33,837 bases of DNA, taken from contig JAJZCB010000038.1 of the NCBI GenBank assembly GCA_021846285.1, forward strand, positions 1-33,837. The letters are read 5' to 3'. The stretch comes from Bacillota bacterium. Its GTDB lineage: Bacteria; Bacillota; Bacilli; Alicyclobacillales; SLC66. Of the stretch, positions 6,961-31,162 are shown in pieces; position 1 is the first letter of the stretch, and the number at the start of each line of letters is the position of its first letter. A model generated the notes under the pieces. The model did not search any database. It saw only the letters and a list, made by a program, of their open reading frames with translations, and was not told the origin of the DNA. Made by a program: the position numbers and the translations under genes.

Positions 6961-7084
6961 ATCAGCAGGATGAAAAACCCGCTTGGCCGGGATCGTATGC
7001 TGTGCCGAGGCGAGTTCGGCGCAGCCGTGTTTGAGAAGCGGCGCAGCATACGATCCCAGCGGGCAGAGACGATCGATTTTCAGG
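6961..7084 (+). repeat. Structured intergenic repeat, copy 1
   Basis: First of three related elements, all in the same orientation. It opens with CAGCAGGATGAAAAACCCGC. The left arm GGGATCGTATGCTGTGCC (6989-7006) pairs with GGCGCAGCATACGATCCC (7040-7057) with one G-U pair. The 33-nt loop contains CGAGTTCGGCGCAGCCGTG. An outer CCCGCT/AGCGGG pair can extend the stem. About 14 nt after the stem a short T run appears. It lies between the end of the pyrimidine genes and the MFS gene. It could be a structured RNA, a REP-like mobile palindrome or an mRNA processing site; the sequence does not decide. Confidence 0.85.
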
Positions 7085-7169
7085 GATAGTCTCTCGTAAT
7101 GGCCATGTATCGCCGGAGGATCTGCCGATTCTTGAGAACTTTCGCCCAGACCCTCATAGGAGATTATAA

Positions 7170-8426
7170 ATGTCCGCCTATTCTGATGTTGAAATCCAGT
7201 TAAACGAACGTGTGAGTATCACCAATGGCAGTTTTGCGATTATCGGGATCAACATCGTCAGTAACTTTGCCCCGCTCTTTGTCCTGTCGGCGCTTCACGC
7301 TACTGCCCAGGACATGGCGCTGTTAAATGCGCTGCCTTCTCTGATGGCCATTATTTCCATGTGGGTTGGAGCCATCCTCGTGGCTAAAACGGCGAGCAAA
7401 AAATGGTTCTGCATACGCTCCACCGCAGTGGGACGTATGTTTTACGGATTGCTGGCTGTCACTCCGTTTTTCATCCATGGACCGTCGCTCGCCCTCGTCA
7501 TCGTCATCCTGATTGCGCTGATGAACGTTCCCGCTTCCTTTAGCGCCCTGTCCTGGACATCGCTCATCGGCGATCTTATACCCGCCGAGCGGCGAGCTGC
7601 GTTTTTCGGAAAGCGCAACCGCGTTGTGACGTTCATCGGAATGCTTGCCACACTCATCCCTGGACTCATTTTGCAACGCTTCCCGGCCGCCGACATCCCT
7701 CCCTACGCGGCTCTTTTCAGTGTCTCCATGCTGTTTTCCGTACTGGAAGTGTACTATCTGGTTCGCCATCGCGAGCACACCGATCGGCGACCGGATCAGA
7801 CCGCTCCAGCCCTCTATCATCCCAGGCTCTTTGTGTCATACCTGAAACGGCGTCCTTATATGCGCTTTTTGTTGGGTTCGATCGTGTTTAATCTGGGCTG
7901 GCAAATGGCCTGGCCGCTATTCAACATCTATCAGATCCAGTACGCGGGCGCCACGGCCCTCTGGATCAGCGCGTTTACGGTCGCCAATCAGCTGTCGCAA
8001 GTACTGACTTTTCATTTTTGGAGCCGCTTCTCGGAGCGTTTTGGCAACACCATGATGCTGGCGATTGCGTGCGCCGGGATGGCGATAGCGCCCGTCTTGA
8101 CCATTCTCAGCCGCAGCCTCTACTACTTGACCGCTCTCAATCTTGTCACCGGCGCATTCCTGGGTGGCATCGGTCTCCTCCTGTTCAATCATCTTCTGGA
8201 AGTTGCGCCGGAATCTGAACGCACATCATACATTGCCCATTATAATATCGTGATCGGTCTTGTCGGTTTCGTCGCCCCGGAGCTTGGAGTCCTGTGTTTG
8301 CACTGGCTGCGCATGGATGGCGGCATGATCATGTCAGCGGTTGTGCGGCTGGGCGGCACCGTCGTGTTTTTCTGGACGGCTCGACAGGCGCTTCGCGCCG
8401 TAAGAAAAAACGCTCTGACTATGTGA
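7170..8426 (+). CDS. Major facilitator superfamily transporter
   Basis: This is a predicted secondary transporter of 418 residues with about twelve hydrophobic segments spread along its length and a central loop near residues 200-225 (RHREHTDRRPDQTAP) separating two six-helix halves. The ATG at 7170 follows AGGAG at good spacing. The cytoplasmic-loop segment GDLIPAERRAAFFGKRNR between helices resembles the charged loops of drug- and sugar-type MFS proteins. No substrate can be named. It is preceded by hairpin repeat copy 1 and followed by accessory DNA. It is probably a single-gene unit; no clear terminator was seen after it. Confidence 0.85.
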   Translation: MSAYSDVEIQLNERVSITNGSFAIIGINIVSNFAPLFVLSALHATAQDMALLNALPSLMAIISMWVGAILVAKTASKKWFCIRSTAVGRMFYGLLAVTPFFIHGPSLALVIVILIALMNVPASFSALSWTSLIGDLIPAERRAAFFGKRNRVVTFIGMLATLIPGLILQRFPAADIPPYAALFSVSMLFSVLEVYYLVRHREHTDRRPDQTAPALYHPRLFVSYLKRRPYMRFLLGSIVFNLGWQMAWPLFNIYQIQYAGATALWISAFTVANQLSQVLTFHFWSRFSERFGNTMMLAIACAGMAIAPVLTILSRSLYYLTALNLVTGAFLGGIGLLLFNHLLEVAPESERTSYIAHYNIVIGLVGFVAPELGVLCLHWLRMDGGMIMSAVVRLGGTVVFFWTARQALRAVRKNALTM

Positions 8427-8573
8427 GTTCTGACAAGTGGCAGGCAATCTACGGCACAAGTTTGTGTTGTATGGTTGTACACAGATTCTATCAAGGAAAA
8501 CAAAAGAACGCTTAACGTCTTTCGGAAGTCGGGGGCGTCTCCTAAAGTTTGTGACTTTGGTCTGCGATTTGCA

Positions 8574-9137
8574 CTGCTCTTGCGGTAGATAGACGTATCC
8601 AACGCGGGTGAGCATTGCCCGGATCTCAGCCAGCAGTGCGGCGCCACGAGTCTGGATGCGCGGAACGTTCTCGAGGAGGATAAGCGCAGGCAGGTCGTCT
8701 TCGAACGCCTCGATCGTCAGTCGCAGTCCACGCACGGCGAGCCGATTGAGCGCTTGATACTTGTCTCCAGCGGCGCATTGCTGGGGTAGTAATCCCGAAA
8801 ATCCTTTGCAGGGTGCGCTCAAAAAGACCACATCCGGCGTTTGACCTTCCATCGCCCGCCAGATGTCGTACGACGTGGCTTCCGTCCAGCCTGCGGGCGG
8901 CTCGTGGCCACGGAATGCAACGTAATCCTCACGCGCGAACAGATCCATCTCCATGGGCGGCGCACTCGTGATACGACGAAAGTCCTCACATGCTTGCGCG
9001 TCCACGTCGATCCCGCAGAGCGTCTCGAATCGACCCATCCGACCACCGGATTCCTTGCGTGCCTGTTGATATCCCAGCGCACCCCCGCCGATACCGCTAA
9101 ACAGGTGCAGGGCTTTATAGATGCGGTCCGTGTCCAA
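8574..9137 (-). pseudogene. C5-cytosine DNA methyltransferase, truncated
   Basis: The first 188 codons match the catalytic half of a C5-cytosine methyltransferase: the SAM-binding motif LHLFSGIGGGALGYQQA (motif I), APCKGFSGL with the catalytic Cys (motif IV), and LLENVPRI (motif VI). After TRVGYVYLPQEQ the family's remaining motifs, target-recognition domain and motifs IX-X are absent; unrelated sequence runs to a stop at 8334, inside the MFS gene. The TTG start at 9137 has no clear ribosome binding site. The frame can be traced upstream to about 9240 with one TGA, so the 5' end may be damaged too. It is very likely inactive. 8427-8573 holds nothing else recognisable. Confidence 0.8.
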
Positions 9138-9292
9138 GGTGTTCGCCGCCCGTGTCTGTCTCTTAAGACCAGCGTAACGGATCGGAACGAGGCAAAACGA
9201 TCATTTTACCGTCAAATTCGGTCGTGGGAACAACATCTCCGTTGTCACCGCCAGAACGCTCACAAGGGTCGTTCCGGCTGCCTGACGACGTG

Positions 9293-9538
9293 TCACGAGA
9301 CGCACTCCTCCACTTGCCTAGTCTGTTCCAGCAGCGTCATGACTTTGTCAAACTGCTCGACCGGCACGCTGATCCCTTTGCCTGGCAGCCACTGCCCGTC
9401 GTTGCTGCGGTTTTGATACCAGGTGCGGATGTCGACGTACTGCTTGTCCTTCAGTCTCGTCCGCGACACGACGATTTTGTTGCGCTCGTCGCGCTCCACT
9501 TCGCCGACGACCGTCTGCTCATCCCAAAATTCGCTCAT
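9293..9538 (-). CDS. PC4/YdbC-like ssDNA-binding protein, copy 1
   Basis: This 81-residue protein has the layout of the bacterial transcriptional coactivator p15 (PC4)/YdbC family: a strand-rich core with ERDERNKIVVSRTRLKDKQYVDIRTWYQ, then GQWLPGKGISVPVEQFDKVMTLLEQ, where the last part forms the family's C-terminal helix. YdbC-type proteins bind single-stranded DNA as dimers; the cellular role is usually unknown. The ATG at 9538 is preferred over one eight codons upstream because GGGGGTG precedes it at about six bases. A near-identical paralogue lies at 16203-16448; only the last residues (TLLEQTRQVEECVS) differ much. Confidence 0.75.
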   Translation of the reverse strand: MSEFWDEQTVVGEVERDERNKIVVSRTRLKDKQYVDIRTWYQNRSNDGQWLPGKGISVPVEQFDKVMTLLEQTRQVEECVS

Positions 9539-9588
9539 GGGATTCACCCCCTTCAAGTCCATGGTAAAGGATTGCGCTTGGGTGAAAC

Positions 9589-9605
9589 GGTCAATTTTAG
9601 GTCAA
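9589..9605 (-). promoter_or_regulatory. TTGACC direct repeat upstream of PC4-like gene copy 1
   Basis: On the minus strand two TTGACC hexamers are separated by five bases (TTGACCTAAAATTGACC) about 50 bases before the PC4-like start. The same arrangement is kept in copy 2. Either hexamer could be a -35 box, although no good -10 follows at 17 bases. The 11-bp spacing, one helical turn, would also suit an operator. Confidence 0.35.
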
Positions 9606-9958
9606 TTTCGCTTGTGTCGAGCGAGTCGGATGCTGCTGCTTCCATCTGTCCTGCGGGCTTCTCCGTGGTCGATGTGTCGCGAAACTTTGATGCAGGTGAC
9701 GCAGGCAGTCTGTCCATACGCAAATTGAGATGCGTCCGTACACATGGAGAGGGGGTGACAAGAAGGAGGCCAGATATTTACGCTTAACTTTTGGAAGGGA
9801 GCGGTGATTATCAGGTCAGCACAAAATAATGTGCGACATGTGTTGTTCGCGGTTGTGTAGATCGGATCTTGTCGAGGAGGTGCGAAGTGATCTTAATCGA
9901 CTGACCATCTGCGCACATCCGAAGCGATGGACTGCAAAGTGAATATCCGAACAGAAAT

Positions 9959-9978
9959 ACGGACATTAGTTTGTCCGT
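9959..9978 (+). promoter_or_regulatory. Small inverted repeat upstream of the 10018 gene
   Basis: ACGGACA (9959-9965) and TGTCCGT (9972-9978) form a perfect 7-bp inverted repeat with a six-base loop, 39 bases before the ATG. It could be an operator or a 5' mRNA hairpin. Nothing comparable was seen in module copy 2. Confidence 0.35.
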
Positions 9979-10017
9979 GTCATAGAATCAAAACTGAAAA
10001 GGAGTGAAGTTGTCGTC

Positions 10018-10743
10018 ATGTCGGCAAATTGGGTTTTCGGTGCTGATAATGCCACGAACTCTTACCCGTATTGCGGAGGAATGAAGTTTTATATCGGACG
10101 GTTAGGGGGCGGAACTACACCGAGTCAACTCTGGACACTTCCAGCAGGCGCGAATATACCGGCCTACACGTATTGGAACATCGAGGGACCCGGTGCAAAC
10201 CCAGACCCGACCAACATTACCAACACGCAGTGGGGGGAACAACAAGCCAATGCCTATTACAACTACTGGCATACTGTGGCTTCGCCGACCGGTTTTGTTG
10301 GCAATACAATGTTCGGCGCTGTTTCTAGCGGTTCTGGTGGATGGAATGCCAAACAGACCGCAACTGCCTATCAAGAAAACCAAGCAGTCGCTGATGGGTT
10401 CTTAAACGGCCTCCAATCTGTCCTGAACGCGAACGACTTCGCCGTCAACATAGGACTCTACGGTTCACAGACTTCTGAGTTTGCCGATCTTCTTGACGCC
10501 TCCAACTGGTCATCGCCACAACCAATAGTGATTTGGAACGCCATTGGAACGTCGAAGAGCTACTCAGATTGTGCCGGAATCGAAAGTGTCTACTGCCCAG
10601 CTCCGAATATTGGCGGCTACGCTGTTGTGATCTGGCAATTTGCCACAAATTTGACTGGGCCTGATTACGATATTTCTCCTTACGGAACCGAGGGAACAAT
10701 TGACATGCAGTGGCCAGCGGTTGCATATCCCGGTTTCTGCTAA
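10018..10743 (+). CDS. Uncharacterised protein, possibly a glycoside hydrolase-like barrel
   Basis: I do not recognise this 241-residue protein with confidence. It is rich in Trp, Tyr, Asn, Ser and Gly, like exported Gram-positive proteins, but has no signal peptide (MSANWVFGADNATNSYPYCGG). It contains alternating hydrophobic strands such as AYTYWNIEGP, NIGLYGSQTSEF and GGYAVVIWQFA, plus a late DMQW. That pattern is reminiscent of GH25 or DUF1906-like TIM barrels, where an acidic residue follows strand ends; this is only a guess. Four Cys could form disulfides. AAAGGAG precedes the ATG at about 13 bases. It is divergent from the PC4-like gene and convergent with an Asp-box gene, the same layout as 16796-17409. 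Confidence 0.6.
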   Translation: MSANWVFGADNATNSYPYCGGMKFYIGRLGGGTTPSQLWTLPAGANIPAYTYWNIEGPGANPDPTNITNTQWGEQQANAYYNYWHTVASPTGFVGNTMFGAVSSGSGGWNAKQTATAYQENQAVADGFLNGLQSVLNANDFAVNIGLYGSQTSEFADLLDASNWSSPQPIVIWNAIGTSKSYSDCAGIESVYCPAPNIGGYAVVIWQFATNLTGPDYDISPYGTEGTIDMQWPAVAYPGFC

Positions 10744-10776
10744 ACTTCGTGTTCCCGGTGCAAGTGATTCTCTTGA

Positions 10777-10819
10777 AATCCAAAGTCCTTCTGCCCTATT
10801 TGCGGAAGGACTTTGGATT
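10777..10819. terminator. Hairpin between convergent genes
   Basis: AATCCAAAGTCCTT (10777-10790) and AAGGACTTTGGATT (10806-10819) form a perfect 14-bp stem with a 15-base loop. It lies between the plus-strand stop at 10743 and the minus-strand stop at 10834, so it could end transcription both ways. No T tract follows on either side. Confidence 0.6.
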
Positions 10820-10833
10820 CCAAACATCTATGT

Positions 10834-12012
10834 TTATCCTGCATTCCACTTGGAACCGCCGTCTTTCGTTATCACAGGCAACCCGTTACTCGTGAGCGCC
10901 CACCCCAGAGTTGGAGAAAGAAATTGAATGCTCGACAGCGGTTCTTCTGTCCGCCCGAGATATGTCCAATTTCGGCCCAAATCCCTTGAAATAAAAAATG
11001 TGACGCCGTGATTAAGCGGTAACGGAACGCCCATAATCAAGGCATTTTGAGAAAGCAAACTGAACATGACCCCAAATGAATCTGGTTTGGTTTTGGTACT
11101 TCCCAAGGTCCATGTGTGTCCTCCGTTTACTGTGCGCAGAAGGCCTGCGCGCCTATAATTCGTACCGACTACACTGGCAACCGGAACCACCCCATACTGC
11201 GATCCAAAAAAGACAGGCCCTTGCGTGAGGACAACCTTGGGCAGCTTACTGTCGATTTTCTGGGATAAGACCGGAATTCGTACAGGTGACCAACTCCACC
11301 CGCCGTCGTGTGTATAAAACAAGGAACCCATGCCGCCGTTGGCGTCACCACCACGTTCGTACCCCACACGGTTTGTGAGAAAACGGATGTCCATGATGTT
11401 TTGCCGGCCATAATTACGCACCAAGGTCCATCTTTGCCCGCCATCGCTTGTTCGATACAACGCCTCAGGAGATGCGGCCAGCGCCGGAAACCCGTTGACC
11501 AGGAGCCAACCATCTTTGCTTGATAAAAAACTAAAAAATGTGCCCCCCGTTCCGACCGCGAACGGGGGGATGACAGTGTACTCGCGCCAACGGACACCGC
11601 CATCGTATGTATACCAAATGGTCAGGCTGTGATGTTTTCCCTTGGCGGCAAGCCATGCATGTCGAGGTGACCCGAAGTACACGGCCTGGTTGGATATCGG
11701 ACGGACGCCAGGGGGATTTACCTCGGCCCAGGTGCGCCAGCCATTTACAGTGTGCAGCACCGCTCTGTAATACACCCCCCATCCATCGTGCTGGTTAAAC
11801 ATTTTAAGGTATAATAAATGCGGATCTTTCCCATTATGCGCTACCGGGGTTCCAGCAGTTCGTGTACGAGCAGGTGCCTTCCCCGCCTCCGTAACGTGCT
11901 GACTGGATTGCTGCGATGAAGCGGAAGGTGAGACCCCGCACCCCGACAGCATGACCGCTGCACTTGTAACGAGAGCAATAGACGCTGCGCGAAACTTCTC
12001 CTGCGATTTCAA
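10834..12012 (-). CDS. Lipoprotein with Asp-box (BNR/Ycf48-like) beta-propeller repeats
   Basis: The predicted product is an exported lipoprotein of 392 residues. From the TTG at 12012 the N terminus has a short basic start, a hydrophobic core and the lipobox MLSGCG, then a Ser/Gln/Thr-rich linker. The body carries at least six Asp-box repeats of the S/T-x-D-x-G-x-x-W type (TYDGGVRW, TSDGGQRW, THDGGWSW, TVNGGHTW, SRDLGRNW, TKDGGSKW), as in sialidase and Ycf48 beta-propellers. The TTG start is chosen because AGGAAGGTGAT precedes it; the ATG at 12060 would add 16 residues with no site. Ligand and role are unknown. A second, damaged propeller gene is at 17463-18544. Confidence 0.8.
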   Translation of the reverse strand: MKSQEKFRAASIALVTSAAVMLSGCGVSPSASSQQSSQHVTEAGKAPARTRTAGTPVAHNGKDPHLLYLKMFNQHDGWGVYYRAVLHTVNGWRTWAEVNPPGVRPISNQAVYFGSPRHAWLAAKGKHHSLTIWYTYDGGVRWREYTVIPPFAVGTGGTFFSFLSSKDGWLLVNGFPALAASPEALYRTSDGGQRWTLVRNYGRQNIMDIRFLTNRVGYERGGDANGGMGSLFYTHDGGWSWSPVRIPVLSQKIDSKLPKVVLTQGPVFFGSQYGVVPVASVVGTNYRRAGLLRTVNGGHTWTLGSTKTKPDSFGVMFSLLSQNALIMGVPLPLNHGVTFFISRDLGRNWTYLGRTEEPLSSIQFLSPTLGWALTSNGLPVITKDGGSKWNAG

Positions 12013-12224
12013 TGCAACATCACCTTCCTGACATCCATGGTCCCCGAATAGACGATTCATATGCCAAAAAGGTTACACATTGCGCTCCCGACCCGGCCCA
12101 CTTATAAGAAGCACAACCGAACCGCTCCGACGCACATTGATGTCCTGTCGCAGAAGACGCACCAGCATGCCCCTCTGAACGTGTGCATGTGGTACTGTTA
12201 CGATGTGAAATGGGGCGATCGTCC

Positions 12225-12686
12225 ATGACGCAGGACGACATCAAACACGAAGTGGCGACGCTGCTCACGGTGCGGCGTTGCTCGTACAACGAGATCGTGC
12301 GACGCCTTGGCCTCACGGAATCCAGAGTGGGCGCCATCATTCGCGATCTGCGCCGGATGGGCATCCTGCCGCCTGCGACACACCGGACTCAGCTCATGAT
12401 GTCCCGTCTGGCCCTGCCGGTTGAACCTGCGGAACTCAAGGAGGCCATACAGGCCGTGGAGCTTGCCATCGATCGGTACGCGGCAGTCATGGAGGATTCC
12501 CCGTCGCAGGTGCTATCCTTTCTGAGCAAACGTGAAACCGTGGAGTTGGGCGCACAACTTCTTAGGTTGTCGGGTGCGGACGGCCAGGACACGCCGACTG
12601 CGGTCGTGCATGCTTTGGCGCTCATTCTGGAGAGCGGCGGGTATGATGTGCCACCGTTGTCGGGGTTCACGCCGGTTCGGTCATGA
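12225..12686 (+). CDS. Helix-turn-helix protein of unknown role
   Basis: This is a 153-residue protein. The first 50 residues read as a winged-helix or sigma-region-4-like HTH: DIKHEVATLLTVRRCSYNEI then VRRLGLTESRVGAIIRDLRRMGIL. The rest is helical, with a long segment VEPAELKEAIQAVELAIDRY, and matches no family I know. The start at ATG 12225 fits the HTH boundary; ATG 12210 and GTG 12183 are also open, and no strong ribosome binding site separates them. It stands alone on the plus strand between minus-strand genes, and probably encodes a small DNA-binding regulator. Confidence 0.6.
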   Translation: MTQDDIKHEVATLLTVRRCSYNEIVRRLGLTESRVGAIIRDLRRMGILPPATHRTQLMMSRLALPVEPAELKEAIQAVELAIDRYAAVMEDSPSQVLSFLSKRETVELGAQLLRLSGADGQDTPTAVVHALALILESGGYDVPPLSGFTPVRS

Positions 12687-12710
12687 TGAACGCTATTTCG
12701 CAACCGCGTG

Positions 12711-12978
12711 TCACGACAGCTTCAGACGAATCGTGTCTGCACCAGAATCCACAGACGTCACCGTATACACCATCTCGCCCATCGGTCCGCCCAATCCTGT
12801 TCTCTATCGACACACGTGTGCCCACCCGTTCCAGAACGAGAAATGGCGCCGATTACGAGGAAGAGAAGAACCCGACGCTCTCCTTTGTGAACCAGAGTTC
12901 ACCGAAGCGAATGCCGACAGACACGATGTTCCCTTCACTTTGGCCCGCCAACTCGTTCGTTCTTGACTCAAAGTGTGA
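12711..12978 (-). pseudogene. Decayed small gene of unknown family
   Basis: No intact gene is seen between 12687 and 13059, but the minus strand carries a protein-like trail. It reads ELAGQSEGNIVSVGIRFGEL then WFTKESVGFFSSS, stops at 12853-12855 (TAA), continues in frame as SAPFLVLERVGTRVSIENRIG, then shifts frame near 12790 to GGPMGEMVYTVTSVDSGADT and IRLKLS ending at a TGA (12711-12713). There is no start codon at the 5' end. One nonsense codon plus one frameshift in a strand-rich sequence of about 85 residues suggests a pseudogene. The family was not identified. Confidence 0.4.
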
Positions 12979-13059
12979 TCAGTAGTCCGTTTGATGGGAA
13001 AATAGCCGTTCGGCCATTTTCATGATAATCTTGTGGCCCGAAGGAACATGGGTGTTTAG

Positions 13060-13488: not shown

Positions 13489-13527
13489 TGTTACGGCTCA
13501 CCGCTCTTTTCTGAAATATAAAAATAC

Positions 13528-13549: not shown

Positions 13550-13569
13550 TATCTATTTCGAAGAGAACT

Positions 13570-16202: not shown

Positions 16203-16448
16203 TCACGAGGCAGGCTCATCCACTTGCTTGATCTGTTCCAGCAGCGCCATGACTTTGTCAAACTGCTCGACCGGCACGCTGATCCCTTTGCCTGGCAGCC
16301 ACTGCCCGTCGTTGCTGCGGTTTTGATACCAGGTGCGGATGTCGACGTACTGCTTGTCCTTCAGTCTCGTCCGCGACACGACGATTTTGTTGCGCTCGTC
16401 GCGCTCCACTTCGCCGACGACCGTCTGCTCATCCCAAAATTCGCTCAT
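16203..16448 (-). CDS. PC4/YdbC-like ssDNA-binding protein, copy 2
   Basis: Paralogue of the gene at 9293-9538, 81 residues, identical over almost the whole core and differing at the C-terminal helix (ALLEQIKQVDEPAS). It has the same start, ribosome binding site and upstream repeat pair. It is divergent from the plus-strand gene at 16796. The conserved core with changes confined to the end suggests recent duplication or gene conversion, with both copies probably expressed. Confidence 0.75.
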   Translation of the reverse strand: MSEFWDEQTVVGEVERDERNKIVVSRTRLKDKQYVDIRTWYQNRSNDGQWLPGKGISVPVEQFDKVMALLEQIKQVDEPAS

Positions 16449-16795: not shown

Positions 16796-17409
16796 ATGGT
16801 GTTTTGGGATATGCAAACCGCTATCAATCTCGGGGGAGCGTTCTCAAAAGGTGAGGCGGAGTCAATCGGTAAGTTTGACGCAGCGAACGGCTATGTCGGC
16901 GGGATCGCGGTCGTGGGCAACATCCCGGATTTCATTCAATATGCCGGTGGCACTGTCCAAGATGCCGAAAGCTTGCTTCTCTCAATTGGACAGAACTATC
17001 TCAAGGGTTTCCCAAAAGGCTTTTTTGCGTGGTCATTCTCCAACGAAAAAGCCAGCGCGTCAGCGGGAACCGATGCTGGTGAAATACAGCGTTTCTTGAC
17101 CAATCAGATCGGTTCGCTCGCTCCCTTCTTTGATGCCGAAACAGGCTATGCGTCAGTTACCGCGCCTTGGGCGGGACCGGAAGTGCTTTACCGCAATTAT
17201 ATTGTCCGGGGGATGCGTCGCAATATACCCAATGCAAGCTTTCCGGTTTCCTCGGAGTAACGACGTACATCGCCTCATGTCAATCAGCACTGGGGTACCA
17301 AGGGGGTATTACTGCTTTTAAATCAGCATTTGGCGCTTGCCCACAATACGTGATCATTAACGGTGGGCACGAGAACCAGATCGACACTTCGACACTTACC
17401 TGTTCTTGA
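16796..17409 (+). pseudogene. Uncharacterised protein with a frame break
   Basis: The first frame starts at ATG 16796 after AGGGGG and runs to a stop at 17260. A second frame carries protein-like sequence (CPGDASQYTQCKLSGFLGVT, later SCQSALGYQGGITAF and INGGHENQIDTSTLTCS) to 17409. One extra G in the G5 run at 17208-17212 would join them into a 204-residue protein. The joined C terminus has several Cys, as in exported proteins. No signal peptide or known family was seen (MVFWDMQTAINLGGAFSKGE). It holds the same module position as the gene at 10018, but clear homology between the two is not visible by eye. It may be a true mutation, an assembly error or slippage. Confidence 0.55.
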
Positions 17410-17422
17410 TCGAAAGTTTGGC

Positions 17423-17456
17423 AAGACCGTTCAGGCATTGTTCCATGAACGGTCTT
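17423..17456. terminator. Hairpin between convergent genes
   Basis: AAGACCGTTCA (17423-17433) and TGAACGGTCTT (17446-17456) form an 11-bp perfect stem with a 12-base loop. It sits between the plus-strand stop at 17409 and the restored minus-strand stop at 17463. There is no T tract. Its position supports 17463 as the true end of the minus-strand gene. Confidence 0.6.
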
Positions 17457-17462
17457 CCTATG

Positions 17463-18544
17463 TCAGTGAGATATCCACGAGTTTCCGTTTGTGTTCGACC
17501 AGATGTGCCGTGGTGTCGTATGCGGGATATCGAGCGGTTCGAGACCGAACCAGAGGTCGATCCTGTGCCCGATTGGAGGGGCGGCGAAAAAAATCCTGCG
17601 AGTCGTGCTGGAGGAACGTTCGGATTCTTGTAGTGCACCGCTATGCTCGGAAGCGGTACGCTTCGCCAGGTGCGTCCACCGTTCGTGGTGTGGAGCAGCG
17701 ATTGATAGCCGAAATACGGAAAATTGGTCGATTGGATCTCCCCCGCTGCCGCCCATCCGGTCCTCTCCGTCTGCATCCGCAACTCGTAGATGGTATGCTG
17801 TCCAACTGGCCGCGTTGAGATCGTCCGCCACCTCGATCCTCCATCCGTTGTTAATTGAATCAATTCCGTGCGCGATGGATCTGTCGTGTTGCCCATGAAC
17901 CAACCGATTCGGGATGATAGCCAATCGAAGCCTTGAATGTGTACACTGGATCCATGCCAAACGGTTTTCCACCGCCAAGATGCGCCAACGATGTCACCCC
18001 GTTTGATCTGGACCTCCCCTGTGGGCAGCGTCAAGGCGATCCATGCCTCATCGGAAGAACCGGGCGCCATCGCCGTCACTTTTTGCGTGTGTGGCCACGG
18101 TGAACGCCAGTGGCTGAGATCCTTTGAGAGCAGCAATCCACCGTTTTGCAAAAGGACGCAAAAGTACGGACGACCAACCGCAGGGAACAGCACGTTTCGT
18201 ACGTTGTACAGGTTAAATGGACCGCCTCTCAGTCGCCAGACGGTCCAGGTGTGACCGCCATTCACCGTGTGGGCAACGGATGTTCCAAGTGAGCCTTGAT
18301 CTCCCCAGACCCAAAGATTTCTTGCTGACGAGGCAAACAAGTATTGCCACTGTGCTCCGCCAAGATCCCAATGCACCCATGTTCGTCCGCCATTATGGGT
18401 TTGTGATATATTCCCTTGGCCTGAACGGTTGCCAAATCCGACAGCCCATGCGTTCTGGTTGCCGAACCATTTTGCCCGTTGCAGGTATCCGGCCCCTTCA
18501 GTCATAAGATACGATCCATGCAACCTTTGGGCGCATCGGCTCAC
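17463..18544 (-). pseudogene. Asp-box (BNR/Ycf48-like) beta-propeller protein, frameshifted
   Basis: This is the second propeller gene of the window. From GTG 18544 (GGTGGAG upstream) it carries Asp-box repeats THNGGRTW, TVNGGHTW, TTDGGSRW and TTNGGRTW. At the run of seven A (17587-17593, plus strand) the frame breaks. The unshifted frame runs through the hairpin to 17396 as low-complexity sequence. The -1 frame reads FFAAPPIGHRIDLWFGLEPL and ends with SNTNGNSW, another Asp-box, stopping at 17463. Unlike the lipoprotein at 10834-12012 it has no signal peptide, so its 5' end may be lost. It is a damaged paralogue or a slippage gene. Confidence 0.7.
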
Positions 18545-18670: not shown

Positions 18671-18797
18671 CCGCCAACAACCGGGAAGAAAAACCCGCGT
18701 GGCCGGAATCGTATGCTGCACCGAGGCGAGTTCGGCGCAGCCGTGTTTGAGAAGCGGCGCAGCATACGATTCCGGCGGGCAGAGACGATCGGTTTTT
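18671..18797 (+). repeat. Structured intergenic repeat, copy 2
   Basis: The left arm GGAATCGTATGCTGCACC (18705-18722) pairs with GGCGCAGCATACGATTCC (18756-18773). The 33-nt loop is identical to that of copy 1. It opens with GCCAACAACCGGGAAGAAAAA and is followed by a T6 run about 16 bases after the stem. A partial second copy of the opening (GCCAACAACCAGGAACGGGG) follows near 18827. The element fills most of the gap between the divergent genes at 18544 and 18869, which otherwise shows nothing. Confidence 0.85.
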
Positions 18798-18868
18798 TGG
18801 GGTAGACTTCCATGTCGCCAGCGCGCCGCCAACAACCAGGAACGGGGAGGGTTTCGCTGATCAAGAAG

Positions 18869-20323
18869 ATGGTGCTGCACGCTCTGACATCCGGAACTGT
18901 CATTGCGCTCATTTTTGCGCTCTCGCCCAAAGGGTTTGTGGGAGACACGGATACGGCTCGCAATTACCTGAGCACCATCGTATCGTGCCTGTCGACGATC
19001 CTTGCCTTGTGTATTTCCATCACGCTTGTGGCCATTCAATTGACGGCCACTCGCTATACCCACCGCGTGCTGGATCTGTTTCTGAAATTGCCGTTCAATA
19101 TTTCACTGATCCTCTTTTACTTTGTGACCATAATTCAGAGTCTGTTTCTCCTGTCGCGCATTCAGGAACCGATTCGGGAGACACTCCCCGGATATTTGCA
19201 GCCACAAATGACGGCGGACATGATTTTGGTGTTATTCTGCTTTGCCATCCTGATCGCCTATCTGTATGCGGTCATGCAGCTGTTGAAACCGGAACGGATC
19301 GTGGCCGAGATTGAACGGGAATGCCGCTACGCCATGTTGCGCTTGCGGGATCGCGAGGCTCTCGACAAGGTGGAGCAGATTTGTGACATTGCGAAGCGAG
19401 CCGCGGGGGACATGGACTCCAGCACTGGACTCGTGGCGATCCACGCACTCGAAAAAGTGGCCAGTGAAGGATCACGCACGCCGCGGGCCAGTGTCACAAA
19501 ACAATTTGTGGAGATCGCGGTCATTGCGGCCAAGGAACGAGAAGGGGGGATGCTCGGGAGTGTCATGGCAGCTCTCTATGCGATCGGCAGTGAAGCGCTG
19601 GCGTCCGGGCGTATGCAGGATGCGCGCGATGTGATTCACGCCTATGAACGCATCGTGCGAACGGCCCTCGTTGGCCAGCGCCTTATGCCATTCGTAGAGG
19701 AAGCGGTCGCGGACATGTTTCGCCTGACTGGTCGCGCGGTGCGCGGACAGGCGCAAACTGTCACAAAGGAACATGCGCTATTTGCCCAGAAGACTTTTCA
19801 TGCCGTTCGCAAGATAGGCGAAGAGGTTCTGGCTTCTGAGGAAGATGGCCAGACTTTCGTGGCGCGTTCGATCCTGTCCGCCGCCTTCGGCAAGTTTTTG
19901 CGCTCGTTGGAACAGATAGTTCCGTTATTGCCCGATGGGCTGTGGCCCGTGTGTCTCGATTACGGAATCCTGGCTAAAAGGCTCATAGAAAAAGCAGAGC
20001 TGTCTGATCTGGCGCCTGTGACCACCTGGTTGCGCAGCGATCTAGGCAGTTGCGCAGGGGGCAGTGACACGGGGCGCAGCCAACTGGCGATCGCAGTCAT
20101 GGTGTGCGCGCTTTCCCACGCAGCCGGGCGCCAGGAGGCGCAACGGCTGATCGTTCACGCGGTCGCGAGCATTGCGCCCCTGTCGCCTGACGCTGTGTCC
20201 GACATGAGTGAGAACTATCGTTTATGGCGCCCGCTGTTCGACTTTGCCGATCCGCGTCCTCATCTGCAGGCGGCGGCTTTGGCCTGGGGCGACTATCGAA
20301 AGCTCCGGGTGAATGGGCGTTGA
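18869..20323 (+). CDS. DUF2254-like membrane protein
   Basis: This is a predicted inner-membrane protein of about 484 residues. Four helices lie in the first 160 residues (TSGTVIALIFALS, IVSCLSTILALCISITLVAI, NISLILFYFVTIIQSLFLL, MILVLFCFAILIAYLYAVMQ), with the segment SITLVAIQLTATRYTHRVLD typical of DUF2254 between them. A long helical cytoplasmic domain follows. The function of the family is unknown. An ATG at 18812 would start inside repeat-derived sequence. ATG 18869 lies 18 bases from GGGGAGG, whereas a CTG at 18857 is six bases from it; the CTG may be the real start (four more residues). It converges with rqcH across a strong hairpin. Confidence 0.75.
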   Translation: MVLHALTSGTVIALIFALSPKGFVGDTDTARNYLSTIVSCLSTILALCISITLVAIQLTATRYTHRVLDLFLKLPFNISLILFYFVTIIQSLFLLSRIQEPIRETLPGYLQPQMTADMILVLFCFAILIAYLYAVMQLLKPERIVAEIERECRYAMLRLRDREALDKVEQICDIAKRAAGDMDSSTGLVAIHALEKVASEGSRTPRASVTKQFVEIAVIAAKEREGGMLGSVMAALYAIGSEALASGRMQDARDVIHAYERIVRTALVGQRLMPFVEEAVADMFRLTGRAVRGQAQTVTKEHALFAQKTFHAVRKIGEEVLASEEDGQTFVARSILSAAFGKFLRSLEQIVPLLPDGLWPVCLDYGILAKRLIEKAELSDLAPVTTWLRSDLGSCAGGSDTGRSQLAIAVMVCALSHAAGRQEAQRLIVHAVASIAPLSPDAVSDMSENYRLWRPLFDFADPRPHLQAAALAWGDYRKLRVNGR

Positions 20324-25935: not shown

Positions 25936-25959
25936 GGTTTTGTCGCGCGGGGTTCGCCC

Positions 25960-25989
25960 TTGTCACGGCGATCGACCCTGCGCTACAAT
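25960..25989 (+). promoter_or_regulatory. SigA-type promoter before yicC
   Basis: TTGTCA (25960-25965) and TACAAT (25984-25989) are separated by 18 bases, close to the housekeeping consensus. It lies about 30 bases before the yicC start region and would head the yicC-remA-rpoZ-coaBC-priA block. Confidence 0.7.
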
Positions 25990-26029
25990 ATAGAAGGGGA
26001 CACTCGGAGGGATTCATCTGATAGCGAGC

Positions 26030-26905
26030 ATGACTGGATATGGCCGGGCAGAGGCGCGCCTAGGAGGGCGCGCCTTGGTTGTTGAGATGAGGGCTGTGAA
26101 TCACCGCTTTGCGGAAGTCACGATGCGCGTACCCCGCGAGTGGATGAGTCTTGAGGAACGCGTTCGCCGATTGGTGCTCTCGCAGATCGGTCGCGGTCGC
26201 GTTGAGATCTTTGTGACAGTCAGTGCGGAATCGGACGCGGCGGATGCCGCTGTGTACGTGAATCAGAGCTTGCTGTCAGCAGCGCTTCGTTTGCTGCGGG
26301 ATGTCAGCGTCAGCGCGCAGGTAGACTTCGAGCAGCCCAGCATCGGTGAACTGTTGGCGTTGCCGGGACTCTTTGTCACAACTGAGGCTCCGGGATGGCC
26401 CGCGGATGGTCAGGAGCTGTTTATTGACACCGTGAACTGTGCCTTGCAGGAATTGACGCTGATGCGCAGAAAAGAAGGAGAGTATCTGGCGACTCACCTT
26501 GAAGCGCGCCTGTGTGATTTGGATGAATGCATCGAGCATGTGGCTTCCAGGGCGCCCGCTGTTGCGCAGTTGTTTCGAAATCGGTTGATGGAGCGGCTGC
26601 AGGAGGTGCTTGGAGAGTTTAAGGTAGAGGCCAGTCGCATTGCCCTTGAAACAGCCATTTTTGCGGAAAAGACATCAATCGAAGAGGAAGTGCAGAGACT
26701 GCACAGCCATGTCCGGCAATTTCGCCGCCTGCTCTCTGGCGATGAGAGCGCCGTCGGACGCAAATTGGACTTTCTCTTGCAGGAGATGCATCGCGAAGTG
26801 AATACTATTGGAGCGAAATCCGGGGATTTGGAGATCTCTGACTCGGTGCTTGCCGCGAAACACGCGATCGAACAGTTGCGGGAGCAGGCGCAGAATGTTG
26901 AGTGA
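26030..26905 (+). CDS. yicC: YicC/YloC family endoribonuclease
   Basis: YicC-family proteins are implicated in RNA decay as endoribonucleases. The 291-residue product opens with [13 protein letters not shown] and has [18 protein letters not shown], the N-terminal family signature. The C-terminal DUF1732-like part includes [16 protein letters not shown] and [20 protein letters not shown]. The ATG at 26030 is 19 bases from GGAGG (26006-26010). A CTG at 26018 sits seven bases from GGAGG and would give [11 protein letters not shown], matching the usual MIxSMTGYG start of the family, so the true start is probably that CTG. It heads the housekeeping block and is followed by remA after 52 bases. Confidence 0.92.
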
Positions 26906-26957
26906 CGCCTCGCAGGCCAAAACGTCCTGGTCATACTGCGTGAGGGGGGGAGAAACC

Positions 26958-27236
26958 GTGAGCGTCCGTCTCATTAACATTGGGTTTGGCAACATGGTGG
27001 CCGTGAACCGCATTGTTTCGATCGTCGGACCTGAATCCGCGCCGATCAAGCGACTGATTCAGGAGGCCAGGGAGAGCGGCAAACTGATTGACGCAACGTA
27101 TGGCAGGCGGACAAGGGCCGTGATTGTCTGTGACAGTGATCACGTGATCCTGTGCGCCGTTCAGCCGGAGACAGTGACCCACCGGATGACGCAAGACCCG
27201 AAAGAAGAGCCTGCGGTCGACGAGGAAGACGCGTAG
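26958..27236 (+). CDS. remA: RemA-family extracellular matrix regulator (DUF370)
   Basis: RemA is a small DNA-binding activator of biofilm matrix and osmoprotection genes in Bacillus, assembled in rings. This 92-residue homologue shows the family core [20 protein letters not shown], a following [20 protein letters not shown], and [20 protein letters not shown]. The GTG at 26958 is preceded by GGGGGGAG. The C-terminal tail is acidic and not conserved in the family. In most Bacillota gmk follows immediately; here only 68 bases separate remA from rpoZ. Confidence 0.92.
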
Positions 27237-27304
27237 GCGGCGATCGCAGGTTGTTGCGGCATGGCAACAGTGACGAATGAAATTGATCAGGGGGTCGCAT
27301 AGCG

Positions 27305-27514
27305 ATGATTTTGTATCCGTCGATCGACAAATTGGTGGATTTGGTGGACAGTAAGTATACACTGGTAATCGCGTCATCGAAACGCGCACGGTCTCTCCAG
27401 GAGGGTGCGCGGCCGCACGCTCACGTAAAGTCGGGTAAGTTTGTCAGTGTGGCGCTGCGCGAACTGGAATTGGGCTCCATCACGTATTTTCGCACGCGCG
27501 AAGGCATTAAGTAA
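27305..27514 (+). CDS. rpoZ: RNA polymerase omega subunit
   Basis: The omega subunit binds the beta' subunit and helps polymerase assembly. At 69 residues it is the short Bacillota form (about 67 in Bacillus). The sequence shows ILYPSIDKLVDLVDSKYTLV and the conserved IASSKRARSLQEGA, then KFVSVALRELELGSI. GGGGGT lies upstream of the ATG. coaBC follows after 43 bases. Confidence 0.92.
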   Translation: MILYPSIDKLVDLVDSKYTLVIASSKRARSLQEGARPHAHVKSGKFVSVALRELELGSITYFRTREGIK

Positions 27515-27557
27515 GCGAATTTGGGTGGTGCGGGTCGATCCCCGGAGGTGTGCACGG

Positions 27558-28781
27558 ATGGACGGAAAAACGATCGTACTAGGCATTACGGGGGGCATCG
27601 CAGCCTACAAGGCGGCTATGTTGGCCAGTGCGCTCACCAAACGCGGGGCGCGCGTTCAAACGGTGATGACTAGGCATGCGACACAGTTTATCACACCCCT
27701 GACGTTGCAAAGCGTAACGCGCCAACCCGTGTTTGTCGATATGTTTGACGAACGTGATCCGTCGCGCGTTGCACACATTGCCTTGGCGGACGACGCTGAT
27801 CTGGTCGTTGTGGCCCCCGCTACGGCGGACGCCATCGCGCGCGTCGCTCATGGGGCGGGCGACGACATGCTGACGACCATGTTGCTTGCCACAAGAGCCC
27901 CAGTTATAATGGCTCCGGCCATGAATGTACATATGTATGAAAATCCGATCGTACAGCGCAACTTGGGCATTCTGCGCGAGGTGGGGTTTTACGTTGCGGA
28001 ACCGGGGGTCGGCCCGCTTGCTTGCGGCTATACAGGGCGGGGCCGATTGATGGAACCGGATGAGCTTGTCGAGTTTATCGATATGGTTCTGACACCAAAG
28101 CTTCTCGCGAACCGGAGCGTGCTCGTGACTGCGGGCCCAACCCGGGAACGCATTGATCCGGTGCGGTATCTCTCCAACGATTCGACGGGCACCATGGGTT
28201 ATGCGCTCGCTCAGATGGCGTGGCGCATGGGCGCCAAGGTAACGCTGGTCACGGGACCAGTGGCAAAGGAACCGCCGATGGGGGTCGAGACAGTGGCTGT
28301 GAACAGCGCGCAAGAGATGCTGCGAGCAGTCGTCGAACGCGCGCCATACAGTGACATTGTCATCAAATCAGCCGCGGTGGCCGATTATCGTCCCGCGCAG
28401 GCAGCAACGGTCAAAATCAAAAAGACTGACCAGGAACTGCGCCTCGACCTGGTTCGCACCGCGGACATCCTGCAGGCTGTGCGGGCTGTTCGCAACTCGT
28501 CTTCGTATGTGGTTGGCTTTGCCGCCGAAACACACGATGTCGATTATTACGCCCGCAAGAAACTTCAGGAAAAGGAACTGGACATGCTTGTACTGAACGA
28601 TATCCTCGAAGAGGGAGCGGGTTTTGGCGATACGACCAATCGGGTGACACTCTACTTTGCGGACGGCGCGGTCCTTCCGCTGGGGCTAGCCCCCAAATTG
28701 GCTGTCGCAGGCGACATCCTGTCGCACGTGGCCAGCCGTTGCGGGGCGACTGGCCGCGTGAATTCGCCGCACACGATATGA
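27558..28781 (+). CDS. coaBC: Bifunctional phosphopantothenoylcysteine decarboxylase/synthetase
   Basis: This enzyme joins phosphopantothenate to cysteine (CoaB, C-terminal) and decarboxylates the product (CoaC, N-terminal, FMN-dependent) in coenzyme A synthesis. It has 407 residues. CoaC motifs: VLGITGGIAAYKAAMLASAL, VAPATADAIARVAHG, and PAMNVHMYENP with the catalytic Asn. CoaB motifs: VLVTAGPTRERIDPVRYLSN and the C-terminal KIKKTD. The ATG at 27558 follows GGAGGTG; longer frames lack a site. The stop overlaps the priA start (ATGA). Confidence 0.96.
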   Translation: MDGKTIVLGITGGIAAYKAAMLASALTKRGARVQTVMTRHATQFITPLTLQSVTRQPVFVDMFDERDPSRVAHIALADDADLVVVAPATADAIARVAHGAGDDMLTTMLLATRAPVIMAPAMNVHMYENPIVQRNLGILREVGFYVAEPGVGPLACGYTGRGRLMEPDELVEFIDMVLTPKLLANRSVLVTAGPTRERIDPVRYLSNDSTGTMGYALAQMAWRMGAKVTLVTGPVAKEPPMGVETVAVNSAQEMLRAVVERAPYSDIVIKSAAVADYRPAQAATVKIKKTDQELRLDLVRTADILQAVRAVRNSSSYVVGFAAETHDVDYYARKKLQEKELDMLVLNDILEEGAGFGDTTNRVTLYFADGAVLPLGLAPKLAVAGDILSHVASRCGATGRVNSPHTI

Positions 28782-31015
28782 TCGTCGCCTCCATAGCGGT
28801 TCTGATGCGAGCGAGACAGGTGGACCAGCTATACGACTACGAGGCGCCCGCGTCAGTCAGTGTGCAGATAGGGCAATGCGTGATGGTTCCGTTTGGCGCA
28901 CGGTACGTTCTGGGCTATGTGGTGAAGCTCACACAGGTAGATCACTCGGCTGCGGCAGGAGAGACCCAGGCGCGCGTTCTGCGGATGCTTGATCGCGAGC
29001 CGCTGTACAACGCTCCCGTGCTCGCCGCAGAGTTGATTGAACTGGCGGCGTTCTTGCGGCACCGTTACATGTGCACCTGGGGAGCAGCCATTCAGACCAT
29101 GTTGCCGCCCGCGACCCGTACGAGTCAGAAAGTGCGTTACAGGGCGCCGGATCAGTGCAATGCGTCGCTCCTGCCGGAAGAACTGCTTCGCTACCTGAAA
29201 CGGTATGGGGGAGCAAGCAAAAAAGTGCTTCTCGACCGTTTTCATGTGACTGCCCAGCAATTGGCCAAATGGCTGGAAGACGGGTCTTTGACCGCCGTAT
29301 CCGAAGCTGTGCAAAAGTACAGTCGCACGCGGTCGACAGTTGCTGCGGATGATGATCTAGCCGCTGCGCCCCTTGAACCCAGTATGGTCCTGTCGACAGA
29401 ACAGAAGGCGGCTTACGATTCGGTATGCTCAGCTCTGGATCAGCGAACGGCGCGGACTTTCGTCTTGCGGGGCGTAACTGGCAGCGGCAAGACGGAAGTT
29501 TACCTGCAGGCGATCGAATATGCGCTTGGATGTGACCTGCAGGCTATTATGCTGGTTCCGGAGATTGCCCTGACGACGCAGATGACAGCCCGCTTCAAGC
29601 GGCGGTTTGGAACGCGGGTAGCTGTGCTGCACAGTCATCTCACGGAACGTGAAAAGCACACGCAGTGGCATCGCATCGCAAATGGACAAGCCGACGTTGT
29701 CATCGGGGCGCGATCCGCCATCTTTGCGCCGCTGGCAAGACTGGGGTTGATTCTGATCGATGAAGAGCACGAATCGACGTACAAACAGGATCGAGAGCCG
29801 CGCTACGTGGTGCGGGAAGTCGCACAGTGGCGGTCGGAACGCGCAGGCGCCGCAGTCGTTTTGGGCAGCGCTACTCCGTCGCTCGATGCGATGTACAGAG
29901 CGGAGCGCGGGCGTTATCAACTGCTCACCCTCAATGCGCGTATTCGGCAGCGTCCATTGCCGGAAGTATCGGTAGTCGACATGAGACAGGAGCTTCGGAC
30001 AGGAGGCCGCTCTCTATTTAGCGGAGTGCTGCGAGAGGCGCTTGAGAACACGCTGGCGCGACGGGAACAGGCCATACTGTTTTTAAACAGGCGTGGTTTT
30101 TCGACTGTCCTGCTTTGTCGCGAGTGTGGAGAAGCAGCCACGTGCCCGCACTGCGATGTGTCTCTCACGTTGCATAAGACGCGCAGCGGGGCGCTGCTGC
30201 GCTGTCATTTTTGCGGACATGCGGAAGGGCTCCGCACGCAGTGCGGGGGCTGCGGAAGTGCGCGCGTGAGGCAGTTTGGCGCCGGCACACAACGTGTTGA
30301 ACATGAGTTGTTGGAACTGTTTCCCGATCTGCGGGTCGTGCGAATGGATGTGGATACAACGACAGCCAAAGGAGCGCATGAACGTCTGCTCGCAGAATTT
30401 GAACGCGGCGACGCCGACATTTTGCTCGGAACGCAGATGATTGCCAAGGGGCTGGATTTTGCGCGGGTTTCTCTAGTTGGCGTGGTAGCGGCGGATACGT
30501 CGCTTCACGTACCCGACTTTCGGGCAGCGGAACGCACGTTTCAACTGCTGGTACAGGTCGCGGGACGCGCGGGCCGACACGAGACTCCGGGCCGGATGAT
30601 CGTGCAGACATTCGCCCCGGACCACTATGCGATTCTGGCCGCAGCGCGCCAGGACTATGGGCGCTTCTACGAGACGGAGCTTGCGGCGAGGAAAATGATG
30701 GAGTACCCGCCGTTTACTGAGATTACCCAATTCCTGATTGCCCACCGGGACGAGCAGCAGGCGCTGCGTCATGCCACCGCATTGCAGGATGAGCTCGCGC
30801 ACCAACTGCAGTCTGTTCCCGGAGTGCGAGTGCTGCCGGCCGTGCCTGCCGCCGTGCCGCGCGCCAAAGGTCTGTATCGATATCAGGTCATGGCGCTGTA
30901 CCGATCATTCGCAGCGGTGCGCGCTGCTGTGCAGGACGTGTACAGGCGCGCACTCAGCAAGGCGCCCACCGACCTGTCGATAACCATAGACGTGAATGCC
31001 CATTCTGTTGGGTAG
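28778..31015 (+). CDS. priA: Primosomal helicase PriA
   Basis: PriA recognises stalled forks and reloads the replicative helicase. The 745-residue protein starts with the 3'-end-binding domain (VLMRARQVDQLYDYEAP). The helicase core has GVTGSGKTEVYLQAIEYA (Walker A, near residue 231) and LILIDEEHESTYKQDREPRY (Walker B DEEH). The zinc insertion near residues 446-493 contains eight Cys (CRECGEAATCPHC, CHFCGHAEG, CGGCGSARV). The C-terminal helicase motifs include LLGTQMIAKGLDF and QVAGRAGR. The start at ATG 28778 overlaps coaBC. Hairpin repeat copy 3 separates it from def. Confidence 0.97.
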   Translation: MIVASIAVLMRARQVDQLYDYEAPASVSVQIGQCVMVPFGARYVLGYVVKLTQVDHSAAAGETQARVLRMLDREPLYNAPVLAAELIELAAFLRHRYMCTWGAAIQTMLPPATRTSQKVRYRAPDQCNASLLPEELLRYLKRYGGASKKVLLDRFHVTAQQLAKWLEDGSLTAVSEAVQKYSRTRSTVAADDDLAAAPLEPSMVLSTEQKAAYDSVCSALDQRTARTFVLRGVTGSGKTEVYLQAIEYALGCDLQAIMLVPEIALTTQMTARFKRRFGTRVAVLHSHLTEREKHTQWHRIANGQADVVIGARSAIFAPLARLGLILIDEEHESTYKQDREPRYVVREVAQWRSERAGAAVVLGSATPSLDAMYRAERGRYQLLTLNARIRQRPLPEVSVVDMRQELRTGGRSLFSGVLREALENTLARREQAILFLNRRGFSTVLLCRECGEAATCPHCDVSLTLHKTRSGALLRCHFCGHAEGLRTQCGGCGSARVRQFGAGTQRVEHELLELFPDLRVVRMDVDTTTAKGAHERLLAEFERGDADILLGTQMIAKGLDFARVSLVGVVAADTSLHVPDFRAAERTFQLLVQVAGRAGRHETPGRMIVQTFAPDHYAILAAARQDYGRFYETELAARKMMEYPPFTEITQFLIAHRDEQQALRHATALQDELAHQLQSVPGVRVLPAVPAAVPRAKGLYRYQVMALYRSFAAVRAAVQDVYRRALSKAPTDLSITIDVNAHSVG

Positions 31016-31033
31016 ACCTTCACGGCGCTTCGC

Positions 31034-31162
31034 GCCAGCAACAACCGGGATGAAAAAGCCCGCTCGTCAGGATTCATATGCTGTGCCCGTCGCGAGTTCG
31101 GCGCAGCCGTGTCTGAGTAGGGGCACAGCATATGAATCCGGTCGGCAGGAGTAAGCCATTTT
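31034..31162 (+). repeat. Structured intergenic repeat, copy 3
   Basis: The left arm GGATTCATATGCTGTGCCC (31070-31088) pairs perfectly with GGGCACAGCATATGAATCC (31121-31139), 19 bp. The loop keeps CGAGTTCGGCGCAGCCGTG but the stem differs from copies 1 and 2 at paired positions on both arms (for example TCG:CGA there, TCA:TGA here). It opens with GCCAGCAACAACCGGGATGA. It lies between priA and def, with def only about 23 bases after it, so it is probably transcribed within the operon. Confidence 0.85.

Follow-up and report, generated by a model that had tools for sequence, protein, structure and literature searches.

Small hairpin repeats are common, and the reason for the retention of their fold is an open question. 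Miniature inverted-repeat transposable elements (MITEs) and non-autonomous elements of the IS200/IS605 type (IS, insertion sequence) are among the known systems nearest to the repeat described here, and the ERIC repeats are of the same broad kind as the BOX and bcr repeats. In this study, a repeat of this sort was analyzed in a stretch of 33,837 nucleotides (referred to as the window) from a bacterium of the Bacillota (assembly GCA_021846285.1, contig JAJZCB010000038.1, positions 1 to 33,837 of the forward strand), for which an original prediction had described three plus-strand elements with a conserved loop and a covarying stem. These elements (copies 1 to 3) are real: the changes on both arms of the stem were confirmed, and the loop core CGAGTTCGGCGCAGCCGTG lies at positions 7011, 18727, and 31093, always on the plus strand. 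Our verdict is that they belong to a lineage-bound family of hairpin repeats, mostly transcript-sense, which falls into the same wide category as BOX, bcr, and ERIC. It looks like a new family of a known kind of repeat, and its hallmark is an invariant internal loop flanked by helices whose sequence is free but whose pairing is retained; no description of it was found in the literature searched, with most subscription journals outside the coverage. The constant and the free parts are cleanly separated here, and two questions become direct: which protein reads the loop, and whether the turnover in place is due to exchange, palindrome correction, or selection.

According to the accessible part of their description (PMC3049150), BOX, RUP, and SPRITE of Streptococcus pneumoniae are 60.8 to 63.3% leading-strand and enriched between convergent genes; BOX is modular and partly transcribed, and all three transpose more slowly than IS elements. 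Like them, the present repeat is small, interspersed, intergenic, confined to a single lineage, and provided with secondary structure. Unlike them, it is sense in 57 of the 65 copies that lie between co-directional genes, and its internal loop is constant between helices that vary freely, a feature that this part of the paper does not describe for BOX, RUP, or SPRITE. The bcr1 to bcr18 repeats of the Bacillus cereus group are also intergenic repeats in Bacillota, and the accessible portion of PMC3446304 reports a conserved secondary structure for some of them and 40 to 51% of the copies in mRNAs; the host lineage differs, and the likeness drawn here is one of description.

Repetitive extragenic palindromes (REPs) are defined, in the sections of PMC3733652 available to us, by a stem of 5 to 13 bp, a loop length of 2 to 20, and an unpaired GTAG or CGTC tag. 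Many extragenic copies, strand-specific features of the hairpin, and mosaics are shared with the REP and RAYT (TnpAREP) systems as far as these are covered in the accessible parts of PMC3733652 and PMC8266576, the latter of which also mentions the choice of cleavage site in IS608. The original prediction had named three possibilities, a family of small structured RNAs, an mRNA element bound by a protein, and a REP-like palindrome, and it is supported in part. The REP-like alternative held with respect to dispersal (copy number, mosaics, and empty sites), but not with respect to the stem and loop lengths of the REP definition, since the stems in the window have 19 to 22 positions and enclose constant loops of 31 to 32 nt. 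With MITEs and elements of the IS200/IS605 type, the repeat shares a short composite build, GATAG at the end and beside the start, and insertion at a GATAGAC site; none of eight repeat motifs was present at 12 transposase or reverse transcriptase (RT) loci in a scan confined to those loci.

Constant loop strands and free helices

The genome to which the window belongs (G000) is a draft of 3,894,429 bases in 164 contigs with a completeness of 98.2%. The 19-base core had 115 matches in it at up to three mismatches (56 forward and 59 reverse), and the same pattern read backwards had none forward and one reverse. A covariance model (R2), which followed a first model (R1) and was based on an alignment (A5) of 45 hairpins taken from five genomes, found at least 132 matches in G000 at E ≤ 1e-4 (150 scored among 3180 candidates), including subtypes with other apical hairpins. 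The original prediction had staked itself on further copies and on covarying arms: many more copies exist in the genome, and 84 of 100 copies form all 15 of the lower-stem pairs tested, with G-U counted.

From 5′ to 3′, the first arm of a lower helix of 15 to 22 positions is followed by the strand GCGAGTT, an apical helix, and the strand TGTYTGAGC, and the second arm then closes the lower helix. The two constant strands may form a G-C and a C-G pair, followed by tandem G.A pairs and a G.U pair. The apical helix occurs as CGGC-GCA-GCCG, AGCGACAGCG, GTGCGAAGCGCTG, TTTGCGGCCTTTAGGCCGC, and others. When 100 copies of G000 were typed by a script, 55 were of type A, 35 of type B, and three of type C, and four were left untyped; in the remaining three, which are A/B hybrids, the two arms derive from two types, and we read them as recombinants.

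The pairing was evaluated with two alignments. Alignment A2 contains 47 of the 78 distinct G000 copies, selected by the loop alone. In its lower helix, 99.1% of the cells are paired, compared with 27 to 56% in slid controls, and 14 of 17 stem pairs are changed on both sides. The covariation score is 0.417 versus 0.163 in shuffles, none of the 500 shuffles reaching the observed score, and RNAalifold was in agreement (14 of 23 pairs). Alignment A5 contains 45 of 58 selected hairpins (of 115 found), and its rows were selected by a script for pairing; the 13 hairpins left outside include some whose internal loops are long or irregular (L123, L234, L248, L259, L261, and L262), and the alignment flatters the pairing. 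Here 92.1% of the cells are paired (20 to 47% in slid controls), 16 of 19 pairs are changed on both sides, and the covariation score is 0.539 versus 0.208 in shuffles; the column pair 19/62 is unpaired in 23 of the 45 rows, and the measure counting further pair types was matched by 13 of 500 shuffles. A structure together with a recognition loop, which had been proposed for the three elements, is strongly supported by this covariation and by the ortholog pairs described below.

In a survey with R1 (E ≤ 1e-3), five of the 59 genomes of the order matched, all of them within one family: at least 78 matches were found in each of three genomes of the same genus (G000, G001, and G002), 26 in G010, and 12 in G005, the last two belonging to two other genera. 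The counts per genome are lower bounds, as at most 78 candidates per genome were scored in the order survey, 13 in the class and phylum samples, and 150 in the R2 search of G000. With R2, three of 398 genomes of a class sample matched, G002 and G010 being absent among the matches listed, and a phylum sample of 398 genomes gave the own genome and one weak match outside the family (G425, E = 3.4e-5), which was taken as chance in view of its 80% G+C and broken pairs. A scan of contigs gave at least 51 stretches, of one genome among the matches listed. Copy 3 had no match in phages and plasmids, and the exact loop pattern had none in viral contigs. At the gathering score, there were no Rfam matches in the window and in ten loci; when the 401 bases surrounding copy 3 were searched against Rfam by E-value, the five hits were all to microRNA models and all fell short of the gathering score (best E, 0.0064). 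In G005 and partly in G010, the flanks and stems are unlike those of G000, and the loop strands differ at single bases only. All five repeat-bearing genomes are drafts in many contigs.

In many copies, the large hairpin is embedded in a mosaic: it is preceded by GATAGACTTTCATG, a small hairpin of the form TGAGTTTTGCGAAGCAAAATCTCA or GGCGCTTCGCGCC, and a linker (for example, CAACAACCGGGATGAAAAACCCGC), and is followed by GGCAG...ATTTTCCGGGATAGAC. The small-hairpin module had 28 matches in G000, 28 in G001, and 50 in G002 at up to three mismatches; it was not matched in G005 or G010. A separate repeat family is formed by the small hairpin TGAGTTTTGCGAAGCAAAATCTCA, which occurs alone or repeated (L224, L225, and L227) and is present three times in tandem in L224. 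Among the 94 G000 copies with enough flank, the 5′ end of the composite was recognized in 34, the 3′ end in 41, and both in 20, with three mismatches allowed and no chance control. GATAG stands at the ends of the composite, and CGTC was seen inside type B loops, with no systematic search for GTAG and CGTC tags. The preceding frame often has its stop codon in the TAG of GATAG (TAG stops in 18 of 34 frames ending up to 135 nt from the loop versus 92 of 417 long frames, p = 2e-4). At L066 (G000 contig C150) and its counterpart L139 in G001, a type C hairpin is followed by tandem repeats of the segment TTCGGCAGACGTGCGGC; GGCAG-like repeats also trail the hairpin in L072 and L045.

Shared sites, empty sites, and probable mobility

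The relative at about 95% identity has copies at many common sites, and one at about 83% has copies at some. The identity between G001 and G000 is 95% over two long blocks, 95 to 96% over two others, and 75 to 87% in the remaining blocks. The G001 loci covered contain 62 copies, 41 of which have both flanks in one G000 locus, and 38 of the 41 were compared; the three omitted ortholog pairs are second, tandem copies at sites already listed, and for five loci (L133, L135, L149, L155, and L214) the search range was extended manually. The hairpin type differs at 10 of the 38 shared sites with the flanks agreeing, single-row type calls being disputable (L123 and L137 have hybrid or altered arms).

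The 28 same-type pairs comprise 504 stem positions, 476 of which are equal. Seventeen stem pairs have changes on both arms and pair in each of the two species, seven one-arm changes still pair, two one-arm changes break the pair, and two both-arm changes leave one form unpaired. Compensated stem changes thus exceed broken ones. The divergence of the flanks of the compared loci is 4.3% (far) and 9.8% (near), and independent change simulated at 4.3% gave 29 ± 5 broken and 0.5 double changes, compared with the 2 broken and 17 double changes observed. The 17 double changes do not represent 17 independent events, because they are clustered in nine pairs, with six of them in a single pair (L134 and L038) whose loop is identical, and because three pairs have the same change, CATATG to CCTATG. 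The loops of the 28 pairs differ at 8 of 756 positions, a number that holds for pattern-found loops, among which strongly altered ones would be missed. An apparent remnant of the other type is present beside the hairpin at two sites, the G001 site of copy 3 and L026. The type differences, the remnants, and the three hybrids together point to exchange among copies, and the small number of broken stems needs selection or palindrome correction, alongside or instead of exchange.

Presence and absence at orthologous sites were also found in comparison with G002. Copy 3 is absent from the G002 priA-def gap, which is 80 to 84% identical there, and the aligned G002 place is without copy 1. At L063, G002 carries the short module instead of the large hairpin, and at position 9064 of G000 contig C137, G000, G001, and G002 each hold a hairpin of different make. 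At the G002 locus L228 (691 to 789), a 92-bp short scaffold interrupts the frame of an hxlR-type regulator, with GATAGAC at its start and directly behind it. This might be read as a target-site duplication, but GATAGAC is also part of the element end. When the two flanks were joined, they matched HxlR (PF01638) with an E-value of 7.5e-31 over positions 1 to 88 of the 91 of the profile. Being non-coding, present in many copies, and variably present at orthologous sites, the repeat has these three characters of a small dispersed repeat or MITE.

We lean, with some reservation, toward the reading that the element is a non-autonomous dispersed hairpin repeat, which is overwritten in place by exchange among copies and whose fold is maintained. 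The repeat would then fold as a hairpin on one strand, with the internal loop GCGAGTT / TGTYTGAGC as its fixed part, and the long lower helix and the short apical helix would be free in sequence provided that both pair. A protein may read the folded strand through the internal loop, and this could be a transposase-like enzyme acting in trans when copies move, probably as DNA. The type differences at shared sites would result from ectopic exchange between copies via the common loop, and the hairpins would be co-transcribed as leaders, spacers, or tails of mRNAs.

Several points weigh against this reading. Purifying selection for a host function explains the scarcity of broken stems as well as exchange or palindrome correction does, and all of the loci compared between G000 and G001 were picked for holding a copy. 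The missing copies in G002 could reflect loss there. The L228 element is without the large hairpin, so that mobility is shown for the scaffold rather than for the hairpin, and draft assemblies can misjoin repeats. The search for a mobilizing enzyme was negative: R1 detected no copy at five Y1 and two RT loci, and RVT_1 matches are present in G001, G002, and G005 but not in G000 (98% complete) or G010 (73% complete). The distance between a Y1 fragment on G000 contig C73 (7174 to 7317) and the copy at C73:9037 is about 1.7 kb.

Two candidate partners were tried and rejected. A reverse transcriptase, as in an origin from a group II intron or a retron, was set aside since the repeat-bearing G000 and G010 are without an RVT_1 match. 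A Y1 or RAYT partner was set aside since Y1 genes occur both with and without the repeat and there are no shared ends at the loci read; no RAYT was recognized at the Y1 loci read, some of those in G000 being unread.

An alternative of the REP/RAYT kind, in which an HUH single-strand transposase would recognize the hairpin together with a tetranucleotide and spread the repeat, is in our view improbable. It would accommodate the asymmetry of the loop between the strands and the GATAG at both composite ends and beside insertion sites, and Y1_Tnp (PF01797) is matched in 13 of the 18 genomes of the family, including all five with the repeat, one fragment being the above-mentioned one at 1.7 kb from a copy. 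However, the other eight of these genomes are without R1 matches, and the best-scoring Y1 locus of G000 (contig C5, locus L198) contains TnpA beside a TnpB-like frame, which is IS605-like by our own reading and has no copy near it. Moreover, REP stems of 5 to 13 bp with a GTAG or CGTC tag, as given in the accessible part of PMC3733652, stand against the 15 to 22 positions found here.

Orientation and the putatively transcribed strand

The placement of 100 G000 copies with enough flank was determined with gene calls from a simple home-made caller, and none of the copies lies within a called gene. Both neighbors were called for 91 copies: 57 are sense to both and 8 antisense to both, 16 lie between convergent and 10 between divergent genes. 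The ratio of sense to antisense (57:8) corresponds to p = 3e-10. The caller missed a 382-aa minus frame beside copy 2, and copy 2 was hence scored as sense to both neighbors. In 20 pieces and the window (40 copies), the regional coding strand is followed by 17 of 19 sense copies and opposed by 7 of 10 antisense copies, the pieces having been partly picked for antisense copies. Local transcription fits the bias better than the replication strand does, because the antisense copies go against the coding strand in 7 of 10 cases, and the replication strand was rejected as its source.

The tails of the copies differ between the strands. On the antisense strand, a T-run of at least four is present in 71 of 100 copies, and 62 of these also have a complementary GCGGG-like helix before it; on the sense strand, a T-run is present in 62 of 100 copies, at least 10 nt past the stem (both without a shuffled control). 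A U-run directly after the stem on the sense strand, as in an intrinsic terminator, was found in none of the 100 copies, and the tool-based terminator scan is blind to loops of more than 8 nt. The earlier argument against copy 3 as a plain terminator is in line with the sense strand, and the antisense strand is terminator-like in the 62 copies mentioned. A possible source of the sense bias is the GCGGG-TTTT terminator-like tail with which the opposite strand of most copies ends, and antisense copies between co-transcribed genes might have been lost because they stop transcription. That the family consists of plain intrinsic terminators, multiplied by chance or through misassembly, is very improbable: it would account for the antisense T-run after the complementary helix, but the sense T-runs lie at least 10 nt past the stem, terminators do not require a constant internal loop, and the copies are on many contigs of one draft and in four other assemblies.

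The bias also bears on the main rival of the mobile-repeat reading, namely that the element is a structured RNA used by the host, the internal loop of which, in mRNA leaders, spacers, and tails, would be bound by an RNA-binding protein or a ribonuclease and would set mRNA stability or translation; a mobile scaffold would have spread it, and selection would have kept it. We regard this as possible, although rather unlikely. The sense bias is in line with it, as are the loop changes at 8 of 756 nt versus 4.3% in the far flanks (the same pattern-found hairpins), the retention of stem pairing after the species split, the occurrence of the same loop in three genera, and one site upstream of the same gene at which all three species have a hairpin, that of G002 with another stem. 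On the other hand, the neighbors of the copies are unrelated genes, some copies are in tandem, G002 lacks copies 1 and 3, convergent (16 of 100) and antisense (8 of 100) contexts occur, and the repeat is present in only 5 of the 59 genomes of the order. The mobile-repeat and host-RNA readings are compatible and not mutually exclusive. A single protein might even bind the internal loop both on folded DNA, where it would copy or exchange hairpins, and on RNA in the mRNAs that carry them, which we consider doubtful. If so, the inherited unit would be the loop and the rule that the arms pair rather than the sequence of the arms, and the repeat would be a dispersed element with sequence turnover in place and retention of shape.

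The three copies in the window

The composite of copy 1 extends from 6908 to 7089 on the plus strand; its aligned place is empty in G002 (contig C117) and filled in G001. It begins with a 5′ scaffold module (6908 to 6947, plus strand) consisting of the linker GATAGACTTCCATG and the small hairpin TGAGTTTTGCGAAGCAAAATCTCA. The large hairpin, which is of type A, lies at 6989 to 7057 on the plus strand (R2 model, E = 1.2e-21), with a stem of 19 positions including one G-U (6989-7007 / 7039-7057) and a loop of 31 nt that holds the internal loop GCGAGTT...TGTTTGAG and the apical hairpin CGGC-GCA-GCCG. The 3′ scaffold tail GATCGATTTTCAGGGATAG (7071 to 7089, plus strand) has a GATAG end, as is found at the 5′ end of the composite. 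In G001, two pairs of the stem differ, each on both arms.

Copy 2 also has a large hairpin of type A, at 18702 to 18776 on the plus strand (R2 model, E = 1.3e-20). Its stem has 22 positions with one mismatch (18702-18723 / 18755-18776), and its loop is 31 nt long and identical to that of copy 1, as had been noted. The opening module CAACAACCGGGAAGAAAAACCCGC lies at 18675 to 18698, and the 3′ tail GATCGGTTTTTTGGGGTAGAC, together with the first part of another stretch found again in relatives, at 18787 to 18842, both on the plus strand. In the list of open reading frames, the neighbors are the 382-aa minus frame (17396 to 18544), which has no Pfam match, and a plus frame (18812 to 20323) matching DUF2254.

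Copy 3 lies in the priA-def gap, where its composite occupies 31013 to 31163 on the plus strand; the first bases are the TAG stop of priA (31013 to 31015), and the last are ATTTTT (31158 to 31163). The composite has no counterpart in G002, and at this site G001 carries a composite of type A. The large hairpin, of type B, is at 31070 to 31139 on the plus strand (R2 model, E = 5.6e-23), with a perfect stem of 19 bp (31070-31088 / 31121-31139) and a loop of 32 nt. The loop lengths of 32 to 33 nt given originally were thus one too long. The loop of copy 3 differs from the other two at the loop edges and in having TCTGAG for TTTGAG. The opening CAACAACCGGGATGAAAAA, which had been ascribed to all three copies, is present in copy 3 and, with one base off, in copy 2; copy 1 has CCATCAGCAGGATGAAAAA instead.

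Elsewhere in the window, there is a weak covariance-model match on the minus strand at 33384 to 33423 (E = 0.016). Positions 12986 to 13059 match several places in G002 and seem to be another dispersed repeat. In the terminator scan, identical hairpin sequences were found at 9422-9441 and 16332-16351 and, likewise, at 9457-9474 and 16367-16384, which suggests a longer duplication in the window.

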